64,000 bases of DNA. Origin: Lacrimispora sphenoides. GTDB taxonomy: Bacteria; Bacillota; Clostridia; Lachnospirales; Lachnospiraceae. The DNA is taken from positions 744,001 through 808,000 of the forward strand of contig NZ_FOIP01000002.1 in assembly GCF_900105215.1 (NCBI RefSeq), given 5' to 3'. A program made the position numbers and the translations under genes. The notes beneath the pieces were generated by a model. The model saw nothing but the letters and a program-made list of their open reading frames with translations, did no database searches and was not told the origin of the DNA. This document shows positions 9,073 to 62,394 of this stretch, one piece after another. Positions within the stretch are counted from its first letter, which is position 1. Every line of letters starts with the position of its first letter.

Positions 9073-9146
9073 TGGAAGTAATGGGGCTCGAACCCATGAC
9101 CTTTCGCGTGTGAGGCGAACGCTCATCCCAGCTGAGCTATACTTCC
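9073..9146 (-). tRNA. tRNA-Val (anticodon CAC)
   Basis: 74 nt. Acceptor GGAAGTA pairs fully with TACTTCC, discriminator A; D arm GCTCAGCTGGGATGAGC; anticodon stem TTCGC/GCGAA with loop CTCACAC, anticodon CAC; T arm with GGTTCGAGCCC. The CCA end is not encoded. It is second in a two-gene operon, six bases after tRNA-Ala. Confidence 0.95.
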
Positions 9147-9152
9147 GTCACA

Positions 9153-9225
9153 TGGAGATAGCGAGACTCGAACTCGTGACCTATGCGTTGCGAACGCATC
9201 GCTCTCCCAGCTGAGCTATATCCCC
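9153..9225 (-). tRNA. tRNA-Ala (anticodon CGC)
   Basis: 73 nt. Acceptor GGGGATA/TATCTCC has the G3-U70 pair that is the alanine identity element; anticodon stem ATGCG/CGCAT with loop TTCGCAA, anticodon CGC; discriminator A, no encoded CCA. First gene of the operon. Confidence 0.95.
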
Positions 9226-12723: not shown

Positions 12724-13644
12724 TTAAAGATAACCGAGTGATTTTAAGTGTAAGTTTAATCCTGTCTCTAGGGGTGTATCGGGCAGCCGTACACCCGCTT
12801 CCCGCAGGGCAGACAGATCATAGATCCGATGGCACAGATGGCCGCTGTACTCCGGGTGATCTTCAAGGTATCCAGTCAGGGGGATCTCCTTTATAGTCAA
12901 GTCCCTGTCAAGCAGCTGTCCAATGATCTCGTAATATCTGCGGTTTTCCACTGCTTTTGGTCCCCCGATACAGAAAATACGGTTAAAAGCGCCTTGCCTT
13001 TCTGCACAGTCGAGCATGGAGTTTGCCAGATCGTCCACAAATATTGGTTGCGTGAGATAGATTCCGCCGCCAACAAGAGATATGGGCTCCCGGTCCAGGA
13101 TGAGCTGGGGCAATTCCTTCTGCCTGCTATGCTCCGGGTAACACCCTATGAGAAAACCAGGTCCGTAGATATGCCCGGGGCGGAATAATGTAACCACTAA
13201 GGAGGTGCTGAAGTTGTTGATAAAGATATGTTCCATACGGCGTTTGTTGCCTGCATAGGTGAGTGCTTCGGGTTCGCCTTCTTCCTCGACGAAATATCCG
13301 TCTTCGTTCTGCGGCGTGTCTTTTCTTAAGGGATCATACACGGAATCCGTGGAAATCACGACCAGACGTTTCGTTATCCCGGGTAATACATCTAAATCCT
13401 GTAAGGCGTGTCTTTCATTCATGCAAATGCAGTCAAAGACGATATCCCAGTTTGTATCCGCTTCTAAAATCGTTTTCCGGAAATTTTCAGTATCGTTTCG
13501 GTCGGCTTTTAAAAGATGGATCCCGTCCCCTAAGGGCCGTTGTCCTCTGGTAACCGCCCAAACTTCATATTCATCTTTTGCAAGTGCAGCCAGACGGCCG
13601 CTTAGGCCTCCGCTTCCTCCGATAATCAGTGCTTTCTTCTTCAT
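12724..13644 (-). CDS. NAD-dependent epimerase/dehydratase (extended SDR-like)
   Basis: 306 aa. N-terminal Rossmann glycine motif KALIIGGSGGLSGRLAAL, an Asp-rich second strand (LLKADRND), then VVISTDSVYDP and YAGNKRRMEHI, i.e. the Ser and the Tyr-x-x-x-Lys region with the Tyr displaced (YAGNKRR). The rest has GPGFLIGCYPEH and FVDDLANSMLD, typical of isoflavone-reductase/RNA-binding-type SDRs. Possibly a sugar-nucleotide or sugar epimerase. Middle gene of the operon: 14 bases after the AraC stop. Confidence 0.75.
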   Translation of the reverse strand: MKKKALIIGGSGGLSGRLAALAKDEYEVWAVTRGQRPLGDGIHLLKADRNDTENFRKTILEADTNWDIVFDCICMNERHALQDLDVLPGITKRLVVISTDSVYDPLRKDTPQNEDGYFVEEEGEPEALTYAGNKRRMEHIFINNFSTSLVVTLFRPGHIYGPGFLIGCYPEHSRQKELPQLILDREPISLVGGGIYLTQPIFVDDLANSMLDCAERQGAFNRIFCIGGPKAVENRRYYEIIGQLLDRDLTIKEIPLTGYLEDHPEYSGHLCHRIYDLSALREAGVRLPDTPLETGLNLHLKSLGYL

Positions 13645-25917: not shown

Positions 25918-26538
25918 TCATTTTTTCTTTTTTATGTTTATGGGCTCGGTTTCTCTTAAATCATCAATGATCTGCTCAATAATCTGCTTCTTTAAGTACA
26001 CATCAAAGGAAAGCTCACAGATCCAGGAAAAGAGGCGGAGATATTCCAGATCATCTTTCTGGAGCCCTTTGTCTTCAAAGGTTTTACCGGCGTGCTCGTA
26101 TTTTTGAAGGATATCCTCCTTGATACGGTCAATACCGCCTTCTACCTGGGAGAAAATTTCCCGGTAGATATCCTCCAAAGGAATCCCTTCCGAAGAATTA
26201 AAGTGGTTTTCCGTAATAGGCTTAAAGAGCTGCTCAATGTCATGAAAAGAGAGCAGATTTTTAAAGTAATATATAAATATTAGCAGCAGAATATGTTCTC
26301 TGGAATATTTCTTTTTATTAGGAGCCGGAAGAAGATTGTTCTTGGCATAATTATTGATCATGGTTTTGGTCAGGACTTTGTCCTCTGGATAGCGTTTGGT
26401 GTCTTTTAAATGCTCATCCATGAAGGTGGTGACCTGATCCATGTACAGATCAATATTGGGAATGGTTTCCGGCCTGATATGGTCTAAGGATTCCAGATGC
26501 TTCAGGATGTCCTGCATTCTTTCGTCGTTGGTCTTCAT
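25918..26538 (-). CDS. DUF1836 domain protein
   Basis: 206 aa from ATG 26538, which has GAGAGGAAAACAT in front; an in-frame extension to 26643 runs through a repeat element and is not used. Motifs: VLTKTMINNYAKNNLLPAPNKKKYSREHI (a MerR-like HTH with a wing) followed by a long helical part ILLLIFIYYFKNLLSFHDIEQLF, matching the DUF1836 family. The MerR-like start suggests DNA binding, but no function is established. The C-terminus ends KKKK. Confidence 0.75.
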   Translation of the reverse strand: MKTNDERMQDILKHLESLDHIRPETIPNIDLYMDQVTTFMDEHLKDTKRYPEDKVLTKTMINNYAKNNLLPAPNKKKYSREHILLLIFIYYFKNLLSFHDIEQLFKPITENHFNSSEGIPLEDIYREIFSQVEGGIDRIKEDILQKYEHAGKTFEDKGLQKDDLEYLRLFSWICELSFDVYLKKQIIEQIIDDLRETEPINIKKKK

Positions 26539-26540
26539 AT

Positions 26541-26594
26541 GTTTTCCTCTTTCCTGCCCATGACTTGGCATAAAGGCATACTCACAGGGCGCCG
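26541..26594 (-). repeat. SD-hairpin intergenic element (one unit)
   Basis: On the minus strand: TATGCCTTTATGCC, then GGGCAGGAAAGAGGAAAAC immediately before the DUF1836 start. It supplies that gene's ribosome site. Same family as the elements at 38101, 46517, 59861 and 60832. Confidence 0.7.
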
Positions 26595-35438: not shown

Positions 35439-38090
35439 TTAATAGCCTCCCCAGGGAGGAATCTGCGTTGTGCCGCCAGGATTCTGAGGTGTATGCCCAG
35501 GTCCATACTGCTGCGGAAGACCGCTTGGTGAATCCAGATTATCTCCCGGAGGAAGGATAATGGAGTTTGCAGAATGAATGGTGCAATAACCTGGCATTGC
35601 GAATTTGGAGTCATCCGTTGCTCCTTCTTCTCCCGCAGGAATTGCCATGAATATGGCGGTGGTCCGTTCCGGACAGTAAGGAGTTGGCAAACGGTGGGAT
35701 ACGGAGCAGACCGTTGCACGTACATGATTGTTGCATACGTCGGTGGGAACCGTACCTTTAGCAAAATATTCTGTGTATACCGCATTGCCTCTGGGGTCGT
35801 TGTTACAGACGCCTGAGACTGCCAGTTTGCCGGATTTACGGCAGATCTGAGCGGTTTCTACGCTGTCAGGCACCTGAAAGCCAGGATCAGACATTCCTTC
35901 ATGGACTCTGGTCATGATCTTCCGCCATATGGGTTTGTGGAAGGAGGTGCCTCCGTTTTGTTTCGTCAGTTTCTGGTTGTCGTCGCAGCCGGCCCAGATA
36001 CCAGCGGTATAATAAGGGGTGTAGCCTACGAACCAGATATCATTGTTTGCAGAGGTGGTACCGCTTTTTCCTGCTCCTGACATGCCGGGAATGCGAGCAG
36101 AAGCGCTGGTGGAACCTGGTCCCGAGCTTGAGAACTTTCTGCTGCTTTCCATGGAACCTGCCATGGCATCAGTTAAAAGGAATGCGGTGGAATCCTTTAA
36201 TACCCGGTGGGTTTCCGGCGTATTGTCAATTAACACCTTTCCGTCATGATCCAGTATTCTGGTAAAAAATATGGGCTTTTTGTAAACGCCGCCGTTGGCG
36301 ATGGTAGCAAAGGCGCCGGTCAGTTCTAAGTTGGAAACACCGGTGGTGATTCCTCCAAGGGCCAGAGCCGGGTTATAATCGGTATCGGTTAAGGAGTTAA
36401 TTCCAAAATTCTTGGCATATTCCACACCAAGCTGAGGCGTTACGGTTTCCATCAGGCAGCGGACTGCCACGATGTTCATGGAATAGATAATTCCATCACG
36501 TATGCTGGAGTAGCCTTGATAACCGGAGCTGTACCAGTTGGAGAAGGTCTTATTGCCCACCGTATAGATGGAATCATAATAAACAGATCCAAGGGTGGCT
36601 CCGCAGGTATCAATGGCAGGTGCAAAGGCTGTCAGAATCTTAAAGGTTGAACCTGGCTGACGGTATGTGCCGCTGGCCCGGTTTAAAGTTAAGCTGGCTG
36701 TTTTTTGCCCCCGTCCGCCGCTTATGGCTTTTACCTCTCCGCTTTTCTGGTCCATGAGAACAAAGGAAGCCTGAGGCTGCAGTGTCTTGTGTAGGCTTTC
36801 TCCTAAAATGGTATCCCCATCTTTTAAAAGATAAGCCTTGTATCCGTCTATATCGGCCTGGACTGCCTCTTCGGTATTGTATAAGCCGTCAAACCCCGTA
36901 TCTCCGTTTTCCTTGTGATAACGTTTGATATTTTCTTCGGAGTAATGGGTGGTCGTTCCATCCTTATGGGTAACAGACAGCCTGTATTCAACGGAATATC
37001 TGGCAGCAGAGTAGTTTTCAGGATTGTTGATTTCTTCGTCTACAATGGCCTGAATCGCAGGATCCTGAGTGGTATAAATCGACAAGCCGCCGCTGTAAAG
37101 CATGTTGTGGGCCTGGGTGTCCGTATAACCTAACTGGTCCTTCATGGCTTTTTTGACCTGCTCCACCAGTTCATCTGTAAAATAGCTGTATGGGGTAGAG
37201 GTTTCCTTGGTGGCGGTATCTACGTTCTGGATCCTGGAATAAACATCATCGGACAGGGCTTCATCTTCTTCCTGCTTTGTGATATATCCCTGGTCATGCA
37301 TATACTGAAGAATAACCTTTTGCTTGTCCGAATTGGCTTTTTGCCCTGTAATCGGGTTAAATTTTGAAGGGTTCTGGGTGATCCCTGCAAGGACTGCGCA
37401 TTCTGATAAGGTTAAGTCCGATATATTCTTATTGAAGTATCTTCTGGCAGCCACCTTAACTCCCAGGGAATTGCTTCCCAGGTTAATGGTATTCATATAG
37501 TTGGTTATGATCTGTTCCTTGGACATGGCCTCATCCAGCTTAACGGCTAAAAACCACTCCTGCAGCTTTCGCTCCAGCCGTTCCCCGAAGCTTTTTTCCA
37601 TTCCGCCTCCGAATACGCTGTTTTTAATTAACTGCTGGGTAATGGTGCTTCCCCCGCCTGCCGTGGAATCTCCTGTCAGTACACCCCTTACGGCACGGAG
37701 TATGGAACGCAAATCGATTCCATTGTGCTCCCAAAACCGGGAATCTTCATAGGAAACAAAAGCATTGACGAGATTCTTCGGAAGTTCCTCATAACTGGCT
37801 TCCTCCCGGTTAGAACCTGCAGTTACCAAGGTTTCAGTGACGTTGCCGGCGCTGTCATAGACTGTTGTTGCATATTCATTTGGAACAATGGTTGCGATAT
37901 CTACGTCAGGAGCATTGTCTATGATTCCTTTTACCATGCCGAAACAGATGCTGGCAACAACAATGCTGCCAAATAAGCATAGCACAAATAGACTCTTTAA
38001 AAAGGCAAGAAAGACCTTAGTGGTATATTTCCTTGCTTTTGAATTGGCAGATCTGATCTTTTTTTCTGTTGATTGTTTGCCATAATTCAT
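35439..38090 (-). CDS. Class A penicillin-binding protein (PBP1A family)
   Basis: 883 aa from ATG 38090 (GGAAAGGAGATTTCCT); the longer reading to 38195 passes through repeat units. N-terminal membrane anchor (about 30-55), GT51 transglycosylase: EDSRFWEHNGIDLRSILRAV and GGSTITQQLIKN; transpeptidase motifs SxxK in RQPGSTFKILTAFAP, SMN in GIIYSMNIVAVR and KSGTTSANNDIWF. C-terminus has a Cys-bearing region (ICRKSGKLAVSGVCNNDPRG) and a Pro/Gly-rich tail PGDNLDSPSGLPQQYGPG. Polymerises and cross-links peptidoglycan. It has two SD-hairpin elements upstream. Confidence 0.93.
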   Translation of the reverse strand: MNYGKQSTEKKIRSANSKARKYTTKVFLAFLKSLFVLCLFGSIVVASICFGMVKGIIDNAPDVDIATIVPNEYATTVYDSAGNVTETLVTAGSNREEASYEELPKNLVNAFVSYEDSRFWEHNGIDLRSILRAVRGVLTGDSTAGGGSTITQQLIKNSVFGGGMEKSFGERLERKLQEWFLAVKLDEAMSKEQIITNYMNTINLGSNSLGVKVAARRYFNKNISDLTLSECAVLAGITQNPSKFNPITGQKANSDKQKVILQYMHDQGYITKQEEDEALSDDVYSRIQNVDTATKETSTPYSYFTDELVEQVKKAMKDQLGYTDTQAHNMLYSGGLSIYTTQDPAIQAIVDEEINNPENYSAARYSVEYRLSVTHKDGTTTHYSEENIKRYHKENGDTGFDGLYNTEEAVQADIDGYKAYLLKDGDTILGESLHKTLQPQASFVLMDQKSGEVKAISGGRGQKTASLTLNRASGTYRQPGSTFKILTAFAPAIDTCGATLGSVYYDSIYTVGNKTFSNWYSSGYQGYSSIRDGIIYSMNIVAVRCLMETVTPQLGVEYAKNFGINSLTDTDYNPALALGGITTGVSNLELTGAFATIANGGVYKKPIFFTRILDHDGKVLIDNTPETHRVLKDSTAFLLTDAMAGSMESSRKFSSSGPGSTSASARIPGMSGAGKSGTTSANNDIWFVGYTPYYTAGIWAGCDDNQKLTKQNGGTSFHKPIWRKIMTRVHEGMSDPGFQVPDSVETAQICRKSGKLAVSGVCNNDPRGNAVYTEYFAKGTVPTDVCNNHVRATVCSVSHRLPTPYCPERTTAIFMAIPAGEEGATDDSKFAMPGYCTIHSANSIILPPGDNLDSPSGLPQQYGPGHTPQNPGGTTQIPPWGGY

Positions 38091-38100
38091 AGGAAATCTC

Positions 38101-38205
38101 CTTTCCACTTTACTGCCCATGCTTTTGGGGCATAAAGGTATACCCGCAGGGTATTTCCACTTTACACGCTTTTGGGTGTAAAGGTATGCCTGCAAGGCAT
38201 TACCG
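38101..38205 (-). repeat. SD-hairpin intergenic element, two tandem units
   Basis: On the minus strand: TACCTTTACACCC...GTGTAAAGTGGAAATACCCTG, then GGGTATACCTTTATGCCCC...GGGCAGTAAAGTGGAAAGGAG, directly upstream of the PBP start. The first unit is diverged (GTGTAAAG replaces GGGCAGG), but the arms still pair, a compensatory pattern. Confidence 0.75.
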
Positions 38206-42633: not shown

Positions 42634-42648
42634 GGTAACATACATATT

Positions 42649-42815
42649 AGAGTAGAGGTTGCGTTGCTTATAAGTACCCTGTCCGATGTATCAGGTACAG
42701 ATGAGGGCAGGGGGAAGGAAGAAACGCCGAAGAACGGTATGGCCTGAGCATGCCTGTTCTGGGCATATGGTTAAGAGCCATATGACTGTCATCTTTTTGG
42801 ATGGGGAGCTACTTA
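42649..42815 (+). promoter_or_regulatory. Lysine riboswitch (L box)
   Basis: P1 arms AGTAG (42651) and CTACT (42809); conserved blocks GTAGAGGTTGCG at the start, GCCGAAGAACGG in the middle, GGTTAAGAGCCATATGACTGTC and GGGGAGCTACTT at the end, in L-box order. It senses lysine and controls dapA with the terminator at 42849. Confidence 0.93.
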
Positions 42816-42848
42816 AAGAAGGATGAGATTACCAGATTCTAAACTTTA

Positions 42849-46516: not shown

Positions 46517-46620
46517 AATACCTGCGGGTATATCTTTATGCCCAATAAAACGGGCAGGAAAGAGGATCACCCTACGGGTATACCTGTATGCCCAGAGGGC
46601 TTGGGCAGAAAAGAGGAAAA
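46517..46620 (+). repeat. SD-hairpin intergenic element, two tandem units
   Basis: TACCTGCGGGTATATCTTTATGCCC...CGGGCAGGAAAGAGGA, then CCCTACGGGTATACCTGTATGCCC...TGGGCAGAAAAGAGGAAAA. The second unit gives the purF ribosome site. Confidence 0.8.
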
Positions 46621-46628
46621 GACATCAA

Positions 46629-48071
46629 ATGAATAACGAATTGAATTTCAATTTTGAGGATGAGCTGCATGAGGAATGCGGCGTATTCGGAATGTACGAT
46701 TTTGACGGCGGCGACGTTGCTTCCACCATTTATTATGGATTGCTTGCATTGCAGCACAGAGGCCAGGAGAGCTGCGGAATCGCGGTCAGCGATACCGGCA
46801 GTTCTAAGGCAAAGGTAAGTGCCTATAAGGGAATGGGGTTATGTAATGAGGTCTTTACACCGGAAATTTTAGAAGGCCTCCGCGGCGACATCGGCGTAGG
46901 TCATGTTCGTTATTCTACTGCAGGCAGCAGCACACGGGAGAATGCCCAGCCGCTTGTACTCAATTATCTGAAAGGAACATTGGCCATGGCTCATAACGGC
47001 AATCTGGTCAATGCACCGGAGTTAAGACGAGAGCTTGAATATAACGGAGCCATTTTCCAGACCACGATTGATTCAGAGGTGATCGCTTACCATATTGCAA
47101 GGGAGAGAGTGAAAGCTGCTACCGTTGAGGCTGCTGTAGTTAATGCCATGAAAAAGCTTAGAGGGGCTTATTCCCTTGTCATAATGAGTCCCCGTAAGAT
47201 AATCGGAGCCAGGGATCCTTATGGATTTAAGCCTCTGTGTATTGGAAAACGTGATAACGCCTATATCCTGGTATCGGAAAGCTGTGCCCTTGATACCCTT
47301 GGTGCAGAGTTTGTCCGGGACGTTTGCCCCGGGGAAGTCGTGACCATTACAAAGGAGGGGATCGCTTCCGATACAAGTCTTTGCCTTACGGATAAGTCAA
47401 AAGAAGCCAGATGTATTTTTGAATATATTTATTTTGCCAGGCCGGACAGCGTGTTTGACGGTGTCAGCGTCTATCATTCCAGGATGTGCGCCGGCCGTGC
47501 GTTAGCGATGGATTCTCCGGTGGAGGCGGACCTTGTGGTCGGAGTTCCGGAATCAGGCAACGCCGCTGCACTGGGATATTCCCTTCAGTCCGGAATCCCT
47601 TATGGAACCGCTTTTGTAAAGAATTCTTATGTAGGCAGGACCTTTATAAAGCCAAAGCAGAGCAACCGGGAATCCGCGGTCAGAATTAAGCTTAATGTGT
47701 TAAAGGAAGCGGTAATGGGGAAGCGTGTCATCATGATCGACGATTCCATAGTCCGTGGTACTACCAGCGCCCTCATTGTCAATATGCTTCGGGAGTCAGG
47801 GGCAAAGGAGGTCCATATCCGGATCAGTTCCCCGCCATTTCTCCATCCCTGTTATTTCGGAACCGATATACCTAACGAGGATCAGCTGATGGCACATAAC
47901 AGAACCATTGATGAAATAAGAGATCTTCTGGGAGCGGATTCTCTGTCTTACTTAAAGATTGAACGGTTGAATGAAATGGCAGAAGGACTTCCGATATGTA
48001 CCGCATGCTTTAGCGGAGATTATCCCATTGAGCCGCCTAAGGAGGACATCCGTGGAGAATACACGGAGTAA
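46629..48071 (+). CDS. purF: Amidophosphoribosyltransferase (glutamine PRPP)
   Basis: 480 aa. A short propeptide ends before the nucleophile Cys (HEECGVFGM); VGHVRYSTAGSSTRENAQP and MAHNGNL belong to the glutaminase half; PRPP-binding VIMIDDSIVRGTTSALIVNM in the transferase half. Cys residues toward the C-terminus (CTACFSGDYP) fit the 4Fe-4S Bacillus-type enzyme. First step of purine synthesis. An imperfect GC-rich hairpin follows at about 48088-48135. Confidence 0.97.
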   Translation: MNNELNFNFEDELHEECGVFGMYDFDGGDVASTIYYGLLALQHRGQESCGIAVSDTGSSKAKVSAYKGMGLCNEVFTPEILEGLRGDIGVGHVRYSTAGSSTRENAQPLVLNYLKGTLAMAHNGNLVNAPELRRELEYNGAIFQTTIDSEVIAYHIARERVKAATVEAAVVNAMKKLRGAYSLVIMSPRKIIGARDPYGFKPLCIGKRDNAYILVSESCALDTLGAEFVRDVCPGEVVTITKEGIASDTSLCLTDKSKEARCIFEYIYFARPDSVFDGVSVYHSRMCAGRALAMDSPVEADLVVGVPESGNAAALGYSLQSGIPYGTAFVKNSYVGRTFIKPKQSNRESAVRIKLNVLKEAVMGKRVIMIDDSIVRGTTSALIVNMLRESGAKEVHIRISSPPFLHPCYFGTDIPNEDQLMAHNRTIDEIRDLLGADSLSYLKIERLNEMAEGLPICTACFSGDYPIEPPKEDIRGEYTE

Positions 48072-57942: not shown

Positions 57943-59856
57943 TTATTCTGCCAGATCTTCCCACAGCTCATACAGCTCTTCCAGCCTCAGCCGGATCGTT
58001 TCCTTTTCGTTATTAAACTCCACCAATTTTGAGACATCGGTAAAAATCTCTTCCTTACCAAGCAGTTCATCAATTTCTCCGTCTCTGGTTTCTAATTTGT
58101 GGATCTCATCCTCTGTTTTCTTTAATTCATTCTGGCGTTTACGAAGACGGGCCTGCTCTTCCTTTTGCGCCTTCCAGTCCAGCTTGGTCTCGGTGATCTC
58201 CTCCGAGGCAGCAGCCTTAGCAGAAAGAGGGGCTGTGTACAAGCTGGTCATGATCTCTTTCTTTTCCAGATAGTAATCATAATTGCCGATGTAATTGATC
58301 AGAGTCTGATTGGTTAAATCCAGGATTCTGGTTGCGGTTTTGTTAATGAAATAACGGTCATGTGACACATAGAGAATGGTTCCCGTATAGTTGACCAGGG
58401 CATCCTCCAGGATTTCTTTGGAGGTAATATCCAAGTGGTTGGTAGGCTCATCCAGTATGAGGAAATTGGCTTCGGAAAGCATCAGCTTTGCCAGGGATAC
58501 CCGGCCACGTTCGCCGCCGCTTAAGTCTTTTACCCGCTTGAATACATCATCACCGGTAAATAAAAAAGCGGCCAGGATGTTACGGATCTGGGTATTGTTC
58601 ATGGAAGGGTAGGTGTCCTGCAGTTCATCAAATAGATTCTTTTCCATATTCAGAATCTGATGCTCCTGGTCATAATATCCGATATGTACCTTGGAGCCTA
58701 AGGAGATTTCTCCTTCATCCGGTTCTAAAATACCGTTTAACATTTTAAGAATGGTAGTTTTTCCGGTTCCGTTGCCGCCGATGATTGCTACCCGCTCTCC
58801 CCGTTTGATTTCAAAATTAACGTTTTCAAAGAGCCGGTTCTGATGAAAGGCTTTTCCCAGCCTGCGGACCGTGAGGACATCGTTTCCGCTGATGATATTG
58901 GGTTCCAGACGGATCCGCATCTCATCATTTATTTCCATTGGTTTTTCCAGAACTTCGATTTTATCCAGCATCTTTTCCCGGCTTTCCGCCCGCTTGATGG
59001 ATTTTTCCCGGTTAAAAGACTTTAATTTGGCAATGACCTCTTCCTGATGCTTAATTTCCTGCTGCTGGTTTAAATATGCTTTCATCTGGGCTTCCCGGAT
59101 CATGGCCCGCTTTCCGCTGTAATCGGTGTAGTTTCCCTGATATACGGTCATAAGGCCGTTATCCAGTTCCATAATTTTCGTGACCACCCGGTCTAGGAAA
59201 TAGCGGTCATGGGCAACGATGATTACACTGCCGTCATAATTGATCAAATATCCTTCCAGCCATGCAATGGATTCCATATCTAAGTGGTTGGTAGGCTCAT
59301 CAAGCAGGATGATATCTGGCTTGGTGAGAAGGAGCCGGCCTAAGGATACCCGGGTCTTCTGGCCGCCGGATAATGACATGACAGGTTTATGGAATTCTTC
59401 TTCCGTAAAGCCAAGTCCTTTTAGTACTCCTGTTACTTCGCTTTGATAGGCATATCCGTTTATCAACTCAAATTCGTGGTTGAGTCTGCTGTAGGTGGTA
59501 AGCATGGATTCCAGCTCCTCGCCCGTGGCGTGCTTCATATCCACTTCCAGCTGGCGGATCCTTGCTTCCATTTCCATGACAGGCCGCTTGGTTTCCAGGA
59601 CTTCTTCATAAACAGTCCGCTCTCCGGACAAATCCTGGTGCTGCGACAGATAGCCGATGGATTTCCCCTTGGAAACAATCACATCTCCTTCGTCGGTGGG
59701 AAGCTCTCCGATGATGATTTTTAACAGTGTGGATTTTCCGGCGCCGTTAATTCCTACAATGGCGGCTTTTTCATGGTCTTCTATATGGAAGGAAGCATGC
59801 TTGATCACTTGATTGCTTCCAAATGCTTTGCTTATATTATTGCATGACAAAATCAT
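57943..59856 (-). CDS. ABC-F family ATPase (ribosome-associated)
   Basis: 637 aa. Two ABC cassettes: Walker A GINGAGKSTLLKI and GGNGTGKTTILKM, signatures LSGGQKTRVSLGRLL and LSGGERGRVSLAKLM, Walker B PDIILLDEPTNHLD and ANFLILDEPTNHLD. A charged linker (residues about 240-290, KREMI...KRAESREKMLDK) and a C-terminal coiled coil (LDWKAQKEEQARLRKRQNEL) are ABC-F traits. No membrane domain. Likely translation factor or resistance-type ribosome protection; which one cannot be told. Confidence 0.92.
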   Translation of the reverse strand: MILSCNNISKAFGSNQVIKHASFHIEDHEKAAIVGINGAGKSTLLKIIIGELPTDEGDVIVSKGKSIGYLSQHQDLSGERTVYEEVLETKRPVMEMEARIRQLEVDMKHATGEELESMLTTYSRLNHEFELINGYAYQSEVTGVLKGLGFTEEEFHKPVMSLSGGQKTRVSLGRLLLTKPDIILLDEPTNHLDMESIAWLEGYLINYDGSVIIVAHDRYFLDRVVTKIMELDNGLMTVYQGNYTDYSGKRAMIREAQMKAYLNQQQEIKHQEEVIAKLKSFNREKSIKRAESREKMLDKIEVLEKPMEINDEMRIRLEPNIISGNDVLTVRRLGKAFHQNRLFENVNFEIKRGERVAIIGGNGTGKTTILKMLNGILEPDEGEISLGSKVHIGYYDQEHQILNMEKNLFDELQDTYPSMNNTQIRNILAAFLFTGDDVFKRVKDLSGGERGRVSLAKLMLSEANFLILDEPTNHLDITSKEILEDALVNYTGTILYVSHDRYFINKTATRILDLTNQTLINYIGNYDYYLEKKEIMTSLYTAPLSAKAAASEEITETKLDWKAQKEEQARLRKRQNELKKTEDEIHKLETRDGEIDELLGKEEIFTDVSKLVEFNNEKETIRLRLEELYELWEDLAE

Positions 59857-60784: not shown

Positions 60785-60830
60785 CCTGCCGGCAGGTGAA
60801 GGGAAGTCTCTTCGCTGCCGGTAGTTTTTC
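60785..60830 (+). terminator. Terminator after rex
   Basis: CCGGCAGGTGAAG / CTTCGCTGCCGG stem, then TAGTTTTTC. Confidence 0.75.
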
Positions 60831-60831
60831 T

Positions 60832-60872
60832 ATAGACCTTTATGCCCCAAAAGCGCGGGCAGGAAAGCGGAA
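60832..60872 (+). repeat. SD-hairpin intergenic element (one unit)
   Basis: AGACCTTTATGCCCC...GCGGGCAGGAAAGCGGAAAGG, upstream of nnr. Confidence 0.75.
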
Positions 60873-60885
60873 AGGTGGGAGATAT

Positions 60886-62394
60886 ATGAGATATCTGGTT
60901 ACAGGAGGACAGATGAAGCAGGTGGACCGCTACACCATAGAGAATATAGGGATTCCCTCTCTGGTGCTTATGGAACGGGCTGCCCTGGCGGTTACAGAAG
61001 AAGTGATGAAGCATGGGCAGAAAACGGACCGGATATGGATTTTATGCGGAAACGGCAATAATGGAGCGGATGGGGTCGCGGCTGCCAGAATGCTGCATTT
61101 GAAAGGATATAAGGTTTTTGCCTTACTGGCTGCCGGAAAAGACAAGGGAAGCAGTGAATATCTGACTCAGGTTTCCATCGCGGAACGTACGGGGGTCAAT
61201 CTGGCAGGATTTTCTGATCTCATTCCGGGTACCTGCGATATTCTCATTGACGCACTTTTTGGCGTGGGTCTGGACCGGGAGATTCTTGGCAGATACCGGG
61301 AGATCCTGGAGACAATCCTCCGCTGCCGGCCGAAATTTACGGTGGCCGTGGATATTCCTTCGGGTATTCATTCGGATACGGGTCAGATCATGGGGATTGC
61401 TTTAAAGGCAGACATAACCGTCACATTCGGCTATGAAAAGCTGGGAACTATGCTCTATCCCGGAAAGGAATACAGCGGAAAGGTCATTGTAGCTGACATC
61501 GGTTTTCCGGAGGAGAGCTTAGAACGCCTTAAGGCAGAGTATTTTACCCTGGATCCGGAAGATGAGAAAATGCTTCCAAAGCGCCCGGCCTATTCCAATA
61601 AAGGGAGCTTTGGAAAGGTCCTTGTGGTGGCCGGATCTAAAAATATGAGCGGGGCTGCCTATTTAAGCGCCCTTGCCGCTTACCGGACAGGAGCAGGCCT
61701 GGTGAAAATTTTCACAGTAGAAGAAAACCGGACCATCCTTCAAACCGGACTTCCGGAAGCCATCATTACCACCTATGAAGCCGGGGATGCAGAAGCAGGG
61801 ACAGAAGGATTTAAAAAGCTTTTGGTAAAGCAGTGTGAGTGGGCCACCGCCATTGTTCTGGGACCGGGACTAGGGCAGGAAGCCTATGTTAGGAATCTGG
61901 TGGAAGAGGTCCTTGCGAATGCTTATGTCCCCATTGTTCTGGATGCAGATGGGCTTGGCACCATTGCTTCAAACCCGGAGCTGACCAGCTATTTCACGGA
62001 AAACATCATTGTGACTCCTCATTTGGGAGAAATGGCGAGGCTTACGGGAAGCGCTGTGGAAACCATACAAAAGCAGCTGATCACCACTGCCAGAGAATAT
62101 GCGGACCGGTTCGGTATTACCTGCGTGTTAAAGGACGCGGTGACGATTGGGGCCTTAAAGGATCAGAGAACCTATGTCAATGGAAGCGGCAACAGTGCTA
62201 TGGCAAAAGCCGGGTCAGGAGATGTGCTGACAGGGATCATAGCCGGACTTCTGGCTCTGGGTCTGGAAGAGTCTGATGCAGCGGCCTATGGTGTATGGCT
62301 TCATGGCCGTGCCGGAGACATGGTAAAAGAGAAGCAGGGAGATCACAGCCTTCTTGCCAGGGAACTGGCGGAAGGGATACATTCAATACGTTAA
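60886..62394 (+). CDS. nnr: Bifunctional NAD(P)H-hydrate epimerase / ADP-dependent dehydratase
   Basis: 502 aa from ATG 60886 (GGTGGGAGATAT). N-terminal YjeF_N (about 1-215): LVLMERAALAVTEEV, WILCGNGNNGADGVAAARML, IDALFGVGL, AVDIPSGIHSDTG. C-terminal carbohydrate-kinase-type half (about 225-500): VVAGSKNMSGAAYLSALAAY, VTPHLGEMARL, AGSGDVLTGIIAGLLALG. Repairs damaged NAD(P)HX. Adjacent to alr, a common Firmicute arrangement. Confidence 0.95.
   Translation: MRYLVTGGQMKQVDRYTIENIGIPSLVLMERAALAVTEEVMKHGQKTDRIWILCGNGNNGADGVAAARMLHLKGYKVFALLAAGKDKGSSEYLTQVSIAERTGVNLAGFSDLIPGTCDILIDALFGVGLDREILGRYREILETILRCRPKFTVAVDIPSGIHSDTGQIMGIALKADITVTFGYEKLGTMLYPGKEYSGKVIVADIGFPEESLERLKAEYFTLDPEDEKMLPKRPAYSNKGSFGKVLVVAGSKNMSGAAYLSALAAYRTGAGLVKIFTVEENRTILQTGLPEAIITTYEAGDAEAGTEGFKKLLVKQCEWATAIVLGPGLGQEAYVRNLVEEVLANAYVPIVLDADGLGTIASNPELTSYFTENIIVTPHLGEMARLTGSAVETIQKQLITTAREYADRFGITCVLKDAVTIGALKDQRTYVNGSGNSAMAKAGSGDVLTGIIAGLLALGLEESDAAAYGVWLHGRAGDMVKEKQGDHSLLARELAEGIHSIR

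Follow-up and report, generated by a model that had tools for sequence, protein, structure and literature searches.

In Lacrimispora sphenoides, a short hairpin-forming sequence stands directly before the start codons of several unrelated genes. This placement raises the question of whether the sequence is an RNA-level control shared by these genes or a mobile element that settles at ribosome sites. We examined it in a window of 64,000 nt (contig NZ_FOIP01000002.1, positions 744,001 to 808,000 of the forward strand), in the host genome, and in related genomes.

Units in the window

A preliminary description of the window had counted nine units, lying on both strands and always in the same orientation relative to the gene. 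Eight units were confirmed before five genes, all of them in the sense direction and just 5' of the start codon:

26542..26591, minus strand: unit before the DUF1836 gene (25918-26538, minus; DUF1836 by Pfam), 62.1 bits with the covariance model
38101..38153, minus strand: 3' unit of the pair before the class A PBP gene (35439-38090, minus), 74.9 bits
38153..38199, minus strand: 5' unit of the PBP pair, E 4.7e-8 (G000:C2:782153-782199)
46518..46567, plus strand: 5' unit of the pair before purF (46629-48071, plus), 54.7 bits
46568..46620, plus strand: 3' unit of the purF pair, 66.7 bits
59910..59960, minus strand: 5' unit of the pair before the ABC-F gene (57943-59856, minus), 60.9 bits
59862..59909, minus strand: 3' unit of the ABC-F pair, 56.1 bits
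60822..60874, plus strand: 5'-truncated unit before nnr (60886-62394, plus), 63.2 bits

The orientation on both strands therefore stood as described, and the count was reduced to eight because the degenerate site at about 4345 gave no match at E≤10 and carries just TTTATGCCCGTGAGGCAGGAAGGAG. The unit before nnr, which had served as the example (60832-60872), is real, yet it is the most truncated one. Its element starts at about 60838, and the preceding part of 60822..60874, including the region taken for the first hairpin, is native sequence, since the same GGTAGTTTTTCTATAGAC is present in the empty site of G007. In the window, ACCTTTATGCCC..GGGCAGNAAAG occurred twice, compared with 0.00 times in shuffles, and the right half GGCAGGAAAGAGGAAA occurred seven times with up to three mismatches, above the 0.97 expected by chance. 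The left part alone, ATACCTTTATGCC, showed no excess in the window at up to three mismatches (23 versus 22.45 expected). The mechanically called open reading frames (ORFs) of the DUF1836, PBP, and nnr genes extend up into or through the element, and gene callers may thus be misled.

The short unit is 52 nt long and consists of the P1 hairpin (xACCC-NNN-GGGTx), the conserved and unpaired TATACCnnTATG, the P3 hairpin, and a purine tail, AGGAAAGAGGAAA. P3 has a stem of about 4 to 5 bp with free sequence and a variable loop. A long form of about 75 to 92 nt carries an extra hairpin, CRCCC...GGGYG, between P1 and P3 (L093, L094, L097, L130, L131, and L095); by eye, its arms vary in step (CACCC/GGGTG, CGCCC/GGGTG, and GTCC/GGAC). 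The purF leader of G008 (L278, near 12770-12870) holds an extra-long form, in which nested hairpins separate P1 from P3; from this it seems that the element grows by hairpin insertion. Another long-form start, at G000:C1:374441-374456, was absent from the matches of the model search; long forms are therefore undercounted. Inspection of the aligned units revealed no terminal inverted repeats: CACCCTGC... at one end has no inverted counterpart in ...GAGGAAA at the other. When the window was compared with Rfam at the gathering score, no unit was matched; the only matches were a lysine riboswitch aptamer (RF00168, 116.9 bits) at 42645-42819 on the plus strand and two tRNAs at 9073-9225 on the minus strand. 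Likewise, no unit matched Rfam at E≤1 in ten element loci, where one neighboring T-box was the sole match.

Copies in the host genome and in related bacteria

A covariance model (R1) was built from the eight window units and used to search the 5.93-Mb host genome. It gave at least 130 matches at E≤1 and at least 112 at E≤0.01, both lower bounds because the best 150 of 1809 first-look candidates were scored. The matches grouped into 100 clusters (74 single, 22 double, and 4 triple), of which 89 reached E≤0.01; an exact pattern was found 14 times, and its reversed control was not found. The start of a sense ORF of at least 60 aa lay within 30 nt of 89 of the 100 clusters, compared with 236 of 1469 intergenic-like control segments, and an antisense start lay that close to 9 clusters. 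With a simple gene caller, 79 clusters were sense-adjacent and 1 was antisense-adjacent, compared with 458 of 5000 random noncoding positions. Copies without orientation to start codons, or arms that do not covary, had been named in the preliminary description as the marks of a merely scattered repeat; the copies found here were oriented and their arms covaried (see below).

By eye, three of the 11 clusters lacking a near start preceded an ORF of 31-49 aa, two had more of the element before the start, one had its start at 37 nt, one lay at the 5' end of a T-box leader, and four were unexplained. The pair at the T-box leader (L115:3788-4060, minus; left neighbor AAGGAAA) is therefore not at a ribosome site. 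At another locus (L018:1501-1898, minus), a T-box-like leader is followed by an element pair and then by a TrpB-like gene, so that two RNA elements share one leader; the T-box-like leader scored 76.1 bits, under the Rfam cutoff of 93. Among the 108 aligned host copies, no two at different loci had identical cores, all being at least one base apart, and activity in the host is therefore not recent.

Thirty proteins, hand-picked among 81 and leaning to recognizable genes, were compared with NCBIfam; no enrichment is therefore claimed. Twenty-six were named, some below the curated cutoff, three had no match, and one had a weak match. The named ones were ysxC, TrpB-like, thiI, peptidylprolyl isomerase, priA, ribF, pgk, aroC, PBP1A family, purF, nnr, ABC-F, rnpA, cobalamin adenosyltransferase, mutL, clpP, pseudouridine synthase, era, ispF, cysS, der, class II aldolase, aspS, metF, sbcD, and gatC, to which Pfam added DUF1836, DUF4364, GtrA, glutamate synthase, and a CobW-type protein. 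No common pathway or function was found among the 30 proteins.

With R1, all but one of the 25 genomes of the genus gave matches, in at least 3 to at least 97 copies (lower bounds, the best 95 candidates being scored per genome). Copies were numerous in G000, G001, G002, G007, G008, G011, G013, and G014 and few in G012, G016, G021, G022, and G024. In one low-copy member of the genus, at least seven near-identical units form a large array (G006:C33:264016-264412). A first sample had suggested that the element is restricted to the genus (0 of 12 other genera of the family); this was refuted by a survey of the family with one genome per genus, in which 24 of 299 genomes, including the host and thus 23 other genera, had matches at E≤0.01. 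A nonhost genome had up to at least 17 matches, again a lower bound from the best 19 candidates per genome. In other families, 1 of 24 genomes of the first sample had two weak matches (best E, 0.06). A survey of 392 genomes of the order with a second model, R2, found matches in 16 genomes, of which 5 belonged to the genus, 9 to other genera of the family, and 2 to other families; the last two had a single weak match each (E 0.003 and 0.007), and copy numbers are lower bounds from the best 15 candidates per genome.

The placement of the element was similar outside the genus, where 46 of 50 clusters had a sense start within 30 nt and 5 had an antisense one. One of the 46 (L331:779-824, in G271) is doubtful, since by eye its position seems to fall within the reading frame of an ABC transporter; it would be a chance match or an uncommon copy within a gene. 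Among the four misses, L360 had a further unit before the start. The genes concerned included, by Pfam, those for Hsp70 (dnaK), ribosomal proteins L30 and S11, an ATP synthase alpha/beta subunit, and a methionyl-type tRNA synthetase, as well as genes resembling rpsQ, cysK, and leuB as judged from N termini alone.

Empty and filled sites at the ribosome-binding site

Orthologous leaders were compared between relatives, and their filled or empty states were read by eye. In the 25 genomes of the genus, the nnr leader contained the element in 5 and was empty in 19, with 1 unreadable (L227, in G019). The filled nnr leaders were short in G000 (the host), G013, and G014, long in G008, and degenerate in G011. 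The other four leaders of the window were compared in the host and ten relatives. The PBP leader was filled in five genomes (one long unit in G002, three units in G014, and two units in the other three) and empty in six (G008, G011, G001, G024, G003, and G023). The purF leader was also filled in five and empty in six (G007, G002, G001, G024, G003, and G023), the ABC-F leader was filled in six and empty in five (G011, G001, G024, G003, and G023), and the DUF1836 leader was filled in seven, empty in three (G001, G024, and G003), and not found in one. For further genes, 30 and then 40 stretches were read by eye against 113 matches listed; one stretch (L304, ppiB of G007) did not show the leader and was excluded from two analyses. 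The insertion at PBP is best read as a gain, because the site is empty in six relatives, the outer group among them; empty sites at some other loci, such as purF and nnr, could be losses by slippage. The nearest relative, G013, had the element at all ten loci read there, so that the comparison captured no insertion in progress.

Six pairs could be aligned such that the filled leader equals the empty site plus a block placed after an A-rich AA or GGTA. With a slash marking the insertion point, these were CCGGTAA/AGGAGG (PBP), GGAGGTA/ACTATG (DUF4364), GTCAGGAA/AGGAAG (glutamate synthase), TTTTTGAA/AGGAGTGG (the 2109727 locus), GAACAA/ACATGG (pseudouridine synthase), and GGAGGAAA/ATGAAAC (ABC-F). 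The AA rule was not visible at host nnr and at DUF1836, where the left ends are truncated or drifted. At the GtrA-type leader, insertion had occurred at two different sites resembling the Shine-Dalgarno sequence (SD) in G000 and G008, and at the 2109727 locus, G008 carries a remnant, GAAACACCC/GAGGAAAGGAG, whose sequence reads as a putative internal deletion. Shared flanking sequence was 2-3 nt at most aligned loci, but at the DUF4364 locus GAGGTA flanked the block on either side. Left and right 8-mers at 84 clusters agreed at 4.73 of 8 positions, compared with 4.45 after shuffling (0 of 2000 shuffles as high), a similarity due in part to decayed tandem units. A long target duplication was considered and rejected, because copies with 14-20 nt of left-right identity mostly had decayed tandem units upstream, as judged by eye.

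The preliminary description had proposed that the element supplies the SD. This holds in part. Among 81 leaders, 31 had just the element's own GAGG or GGAAA at SD distance, but 35 had a native SD-like 4-mer 3' of the element, and 15 were ambiguous. The aligned pairs displayed both outcomes: where the native SD lies 3' of the cut (PBP and the 2109727 locus), it was retained, and where it lies 5' of the cut (ABC-F, DUF4364, and pseudouridine synthase), the GAGG of the element stands at SD distance. In some copies the old SD has drifted, from GGAGGAAA to GGAAGAAAA at ABC-F and from CGGAGG to GGCCGG at DUF1836. In predicted folds, the mean unpaired probability of the SD zone was 0.619 in the 81 element leaders and 0.528 in 120 control leaders selected for an SD-like 4-mer and an ATG (p 6e-4), and the start zone and the upstream region did not differ from those of the controls (p 0.09 and 0.22). 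Therefore, the element does not hide the SD in silico, and sequestration of the SD was unsupported.

We also counted how often SD-like motifs in noncoding DNA lie at called starts. The fractions were 60/355 for GGAAA, 20/34 for GAGGAAA, and 89/116 for AGGAGG. GGAAA alone is thus too weak as a target rule. A GAGGAAA or AGGAGG target would explain most of the placement, and the bias toward the SD is therefore no proof of function by itself.

Fold of the element and possible explanations

The suggestion that the RNA fold is under selection was supported by covariation in the host and in other genera and by conservation of the P3 stem relative to its loop. Among the 108 host copies, 66 double-change cells were counted, compared with 21.4 in shuffles. 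The covariation score was 0.168 versus 0.103, and none of 500 shuffles was as high; relatedness of the copies can inflate this comparison, and slid controls, which keep that relatedness, gave 0.022-0.079. Pair types in the host were AU/GC/CG and CG/UA in P1 and CG/UA in P3. The set from outside the genus comprised 53 copies (52 distinct) from 21 genomes; the 52 distinct copies had 60 double-change cells, compared with 21.1 in shuffles, and P3 was 97.9% paired, with CG, UA, GC, and AU types at one pair.

Conservation in place was followed at 21 loci by comparing orthologous units, limited to the 3'-most ones that were assigned to one gene. The 59 comparisons have the host copy in common and cannot be taken as independent. 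The P3 stem had changed at 21 of 457 sites (4.6%) and the P3 loop at 83 of 478 (17.4%), the loop being faster than the stem in 37 and slower in 5 of the 59 comparisons. For P1, the stem had changed at 77 of 555 sites and the loop at 46 of 162 (28 versus 16 comparisons). Changed pairs were still paired in the orthologs in 8 of 16 cases for P3 and in 18 of 35 for P1. Since about half of the changed pairs stay paired, conservation of the P3 stem is better supported than compensation in place. The diverged PBP copy, in which both arms have changed (CTTTACAC/GTGTAAAG), had been cited as a sign of selection on the fold; its G013 ortholog reads TTTATGCCC..GGCAGTAAAG, so a small deletion is part of the change in the arms, and this copy speaks only weakly for compensation. 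A further pairing, P2 (CCTTT with AAAG, that is, an anti-SD-like CCUUU with the purine tail), was not general: 75.8% of its cells were paired in host copies and 65.2% in copies from other genera, while in orthologs the pairing was kept at 9 of 21 changed pairs.

Empty orthologous sites together with arrays of one, two, or three units argue that the element very probably is, or once was, mobile. We think it likely that it forms a family of short nonautonomous mobile repeats inserting beside the SD, and that SD-directed insertion followed by purging is the probable cause of the fixed orientation. The block would insert after AA in or next to the SD with its purine tail facing the start codon; the native SD would then stay 3' of the element, or the element's GAGG would replace it and the old upstream SD might decay. 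Arrays would grow and shrink head to tail through unequal recombination and because the 3' end of the element resembles its target. Expression would persist because the new leader still offers an open SD, and would be altered mildly at most. The mover would be an enzyme preferring SD-like sequence, and insertions inside genes would be purged. No autonomous copy was found with a strict pattern, as each of the 23 exact left ends found in the host belongs to a known unit.

Of the two readings proposed at the outset, the mobile element gained from the empty and filled sites, the variable arrays, and the species-specific distribution, whereas the shared RNA control lost ground with the unrelated genes and the open SD zone. 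In that second reading, a protein, a small RNA, or the ribosome would act in trans by reading the hairpins and UAUACC/UAUG, the copies of a dispersed cis-regulatory RNA would form a regulon, and mobility would be the route by which it spread. The covariation within and outside the genus and the conserved P3 stem fit such a regulon, as do the core genes that carry the element (era, der, ysxC, aspS, cysS, gatC, rnpA, priA, pgk, and clpP). However, the compared proteins share no function, occupancy varies between close species, control leaders have an SD zone that is if anything less open, and no Rfam family matches; structure needed for movement would covary too, and homogenization between units could lie behind the conservation in place and so mimic constraint. 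We therefore consider the regulon unlikely, and a regulatory role under selection is doubtful to the same degree.

Somewhat less probable still is a stabilizer of mRNA 5' ends, in which SD-like GGAAAGAGGAAA arrays and hairpins would hold the 30S subunit and shield the leader from 5' nucleases. It is likened to Stab-SD, a 30S-bound 5' stabilizer that guards against such nucleases. Every unit has an SD-like purine run, and the PBP insertion directly follows a TATAAT box (just upstream of the 5' unit at 38153..38199, minus), so that the element makes up nearly the whole leader there, but some copies lie between same-strand neighbor genes rather than at 5' ends (ispF-cysS in L117 and clpP-clpX in L113). 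The hairpins, the target-like 3' end, the fixed orientation, the tandem arrays, and the lack of a clear long target duplication recall REP and IS200-IS605-type elements, which are mobilized by Y1 transposases; here such an enzyme would recognize the hairpins and an AGGAAA-like target. This mobilizer is improbable, because the Y1_Tnp domain (PF01797), although present in 20 of 25 genomes of the genus, is absent from the element-rich G014 and G008 and from 4 of 10 carriers outside the genus (G138, G244, G331, and G285); its absence from carriers may reflect a past, lost enzyme. A leader peptide is very improbable. An ATG inside the element, which would open a short frame coupled to the gene, is present in 71 of 81 leaders, and its TGA overlaps the start codon at nnr (60842-60889) and purF (46588-46632). 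The frames relative to the gene are nevertheless scattered (19/23/29), a stop falls in coupling range in 17 of 71 leaders, and by eye no SD-like run precedes the inner ATG, so that the element has no conserved reading frame. The best reading thus remains a new family of SD-targeting, structured, nonautonomous repeats.

A literature search yielded no paper that we recognized as describing the element; supplements of large structured-RNA surveys lay outside that search. The nearest published parallel found is the TAACTGA repeats and the nearest in general kind is BOX, and the element is a member of neither. TAACTGA repeats of marine Beggiatoaceae lie mostly within several nucleotides upstream of the starts of unrelated genes, are forward-oriented, and have been proposed to act posttranscriptionally; the 7-nt repeat has little SD character and overlaps the expected ribosome site (PMC4679880, available text). 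The element resembles them as forward-oriented direct repeats at starts of unrelated genes (89 of 100 host clusters are sense-adjacent, and 26 hold two or three units). It differs in its 52-nt two-hairpin unit, its SD-like tail, and its empty sites, and the available text on TAACTGA describes no covarying fold; the likeness is one of working, and no sequence kinship is claimed. BOX, RUP, and SPRITE of Streptococcus pneumoniae are small interspersed repeats of variable length with insertion polymorphism and a possible effect on neighbors; BOX has terminal inverted repeats, and one BOX lies between T-box leaders (PMC3049150, in the text available). BOX and the element are both interspersed repeats of Firmicutes, and two copies of the latter adjoin T-box leaders. 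In contrast to BOX, for which that text describes no fixed place before starts, the element has nearly fixed orientation and position and no terminal inverted repeats.

REP sequences and BIMEs are short palindromic repeats associated with RAYT transposases (PMC2817692). The element shares with them the short palindromic repeats, over 100 copies, and composite arrays. REPs within BIMEs alternate in orientation, whereas units of the element follow one another head to tail and lie at ribosome sites, and several carriers lack Y1. Among enterobacterial repeats resembling miniature inverted-repeat transposable elements (MITEs), ERIC and YPAL (168 bp) have empty and filled sites and, after insertion, RNA-level effects that act on upstream transcripts (PMC2229807, in its available part); ERIC is 127 bp long. 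The element shares the empty and filled sites; it is shorter and lies at start codons, a placement that this part does not describe for ERIC or YPAL, and unlike a MITE it lacks terminal inverted repeats.

Read from sequence, this would be an unusual small mobile element, one whose arrival at a ribosome-binding site does not shut the gene off. It also precedes genes that are usually essential, although a repeat within expression signals is expected to be harmful. A further, unlikely possibility is a self-spreading translational control: a mobile RNA module would target SD sites, bring its own SD and a two-hairpin reader site, and enroll genes into a family-wide posttranscriptional regulon that is rewired between close species. 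If this is true, the enrolled genes would include ribosome-assembly GTPases, tRNA synthetases, and genes for replication restart and glycolysis. The natural empty, single, double, and triple leaders in sister species form a ready-made series for studying the extent to which a 5' leader tolerates rebuilding, the evolutionary replacement of ribosome sites, and the question of whether regulons can arise from mobile RNA.
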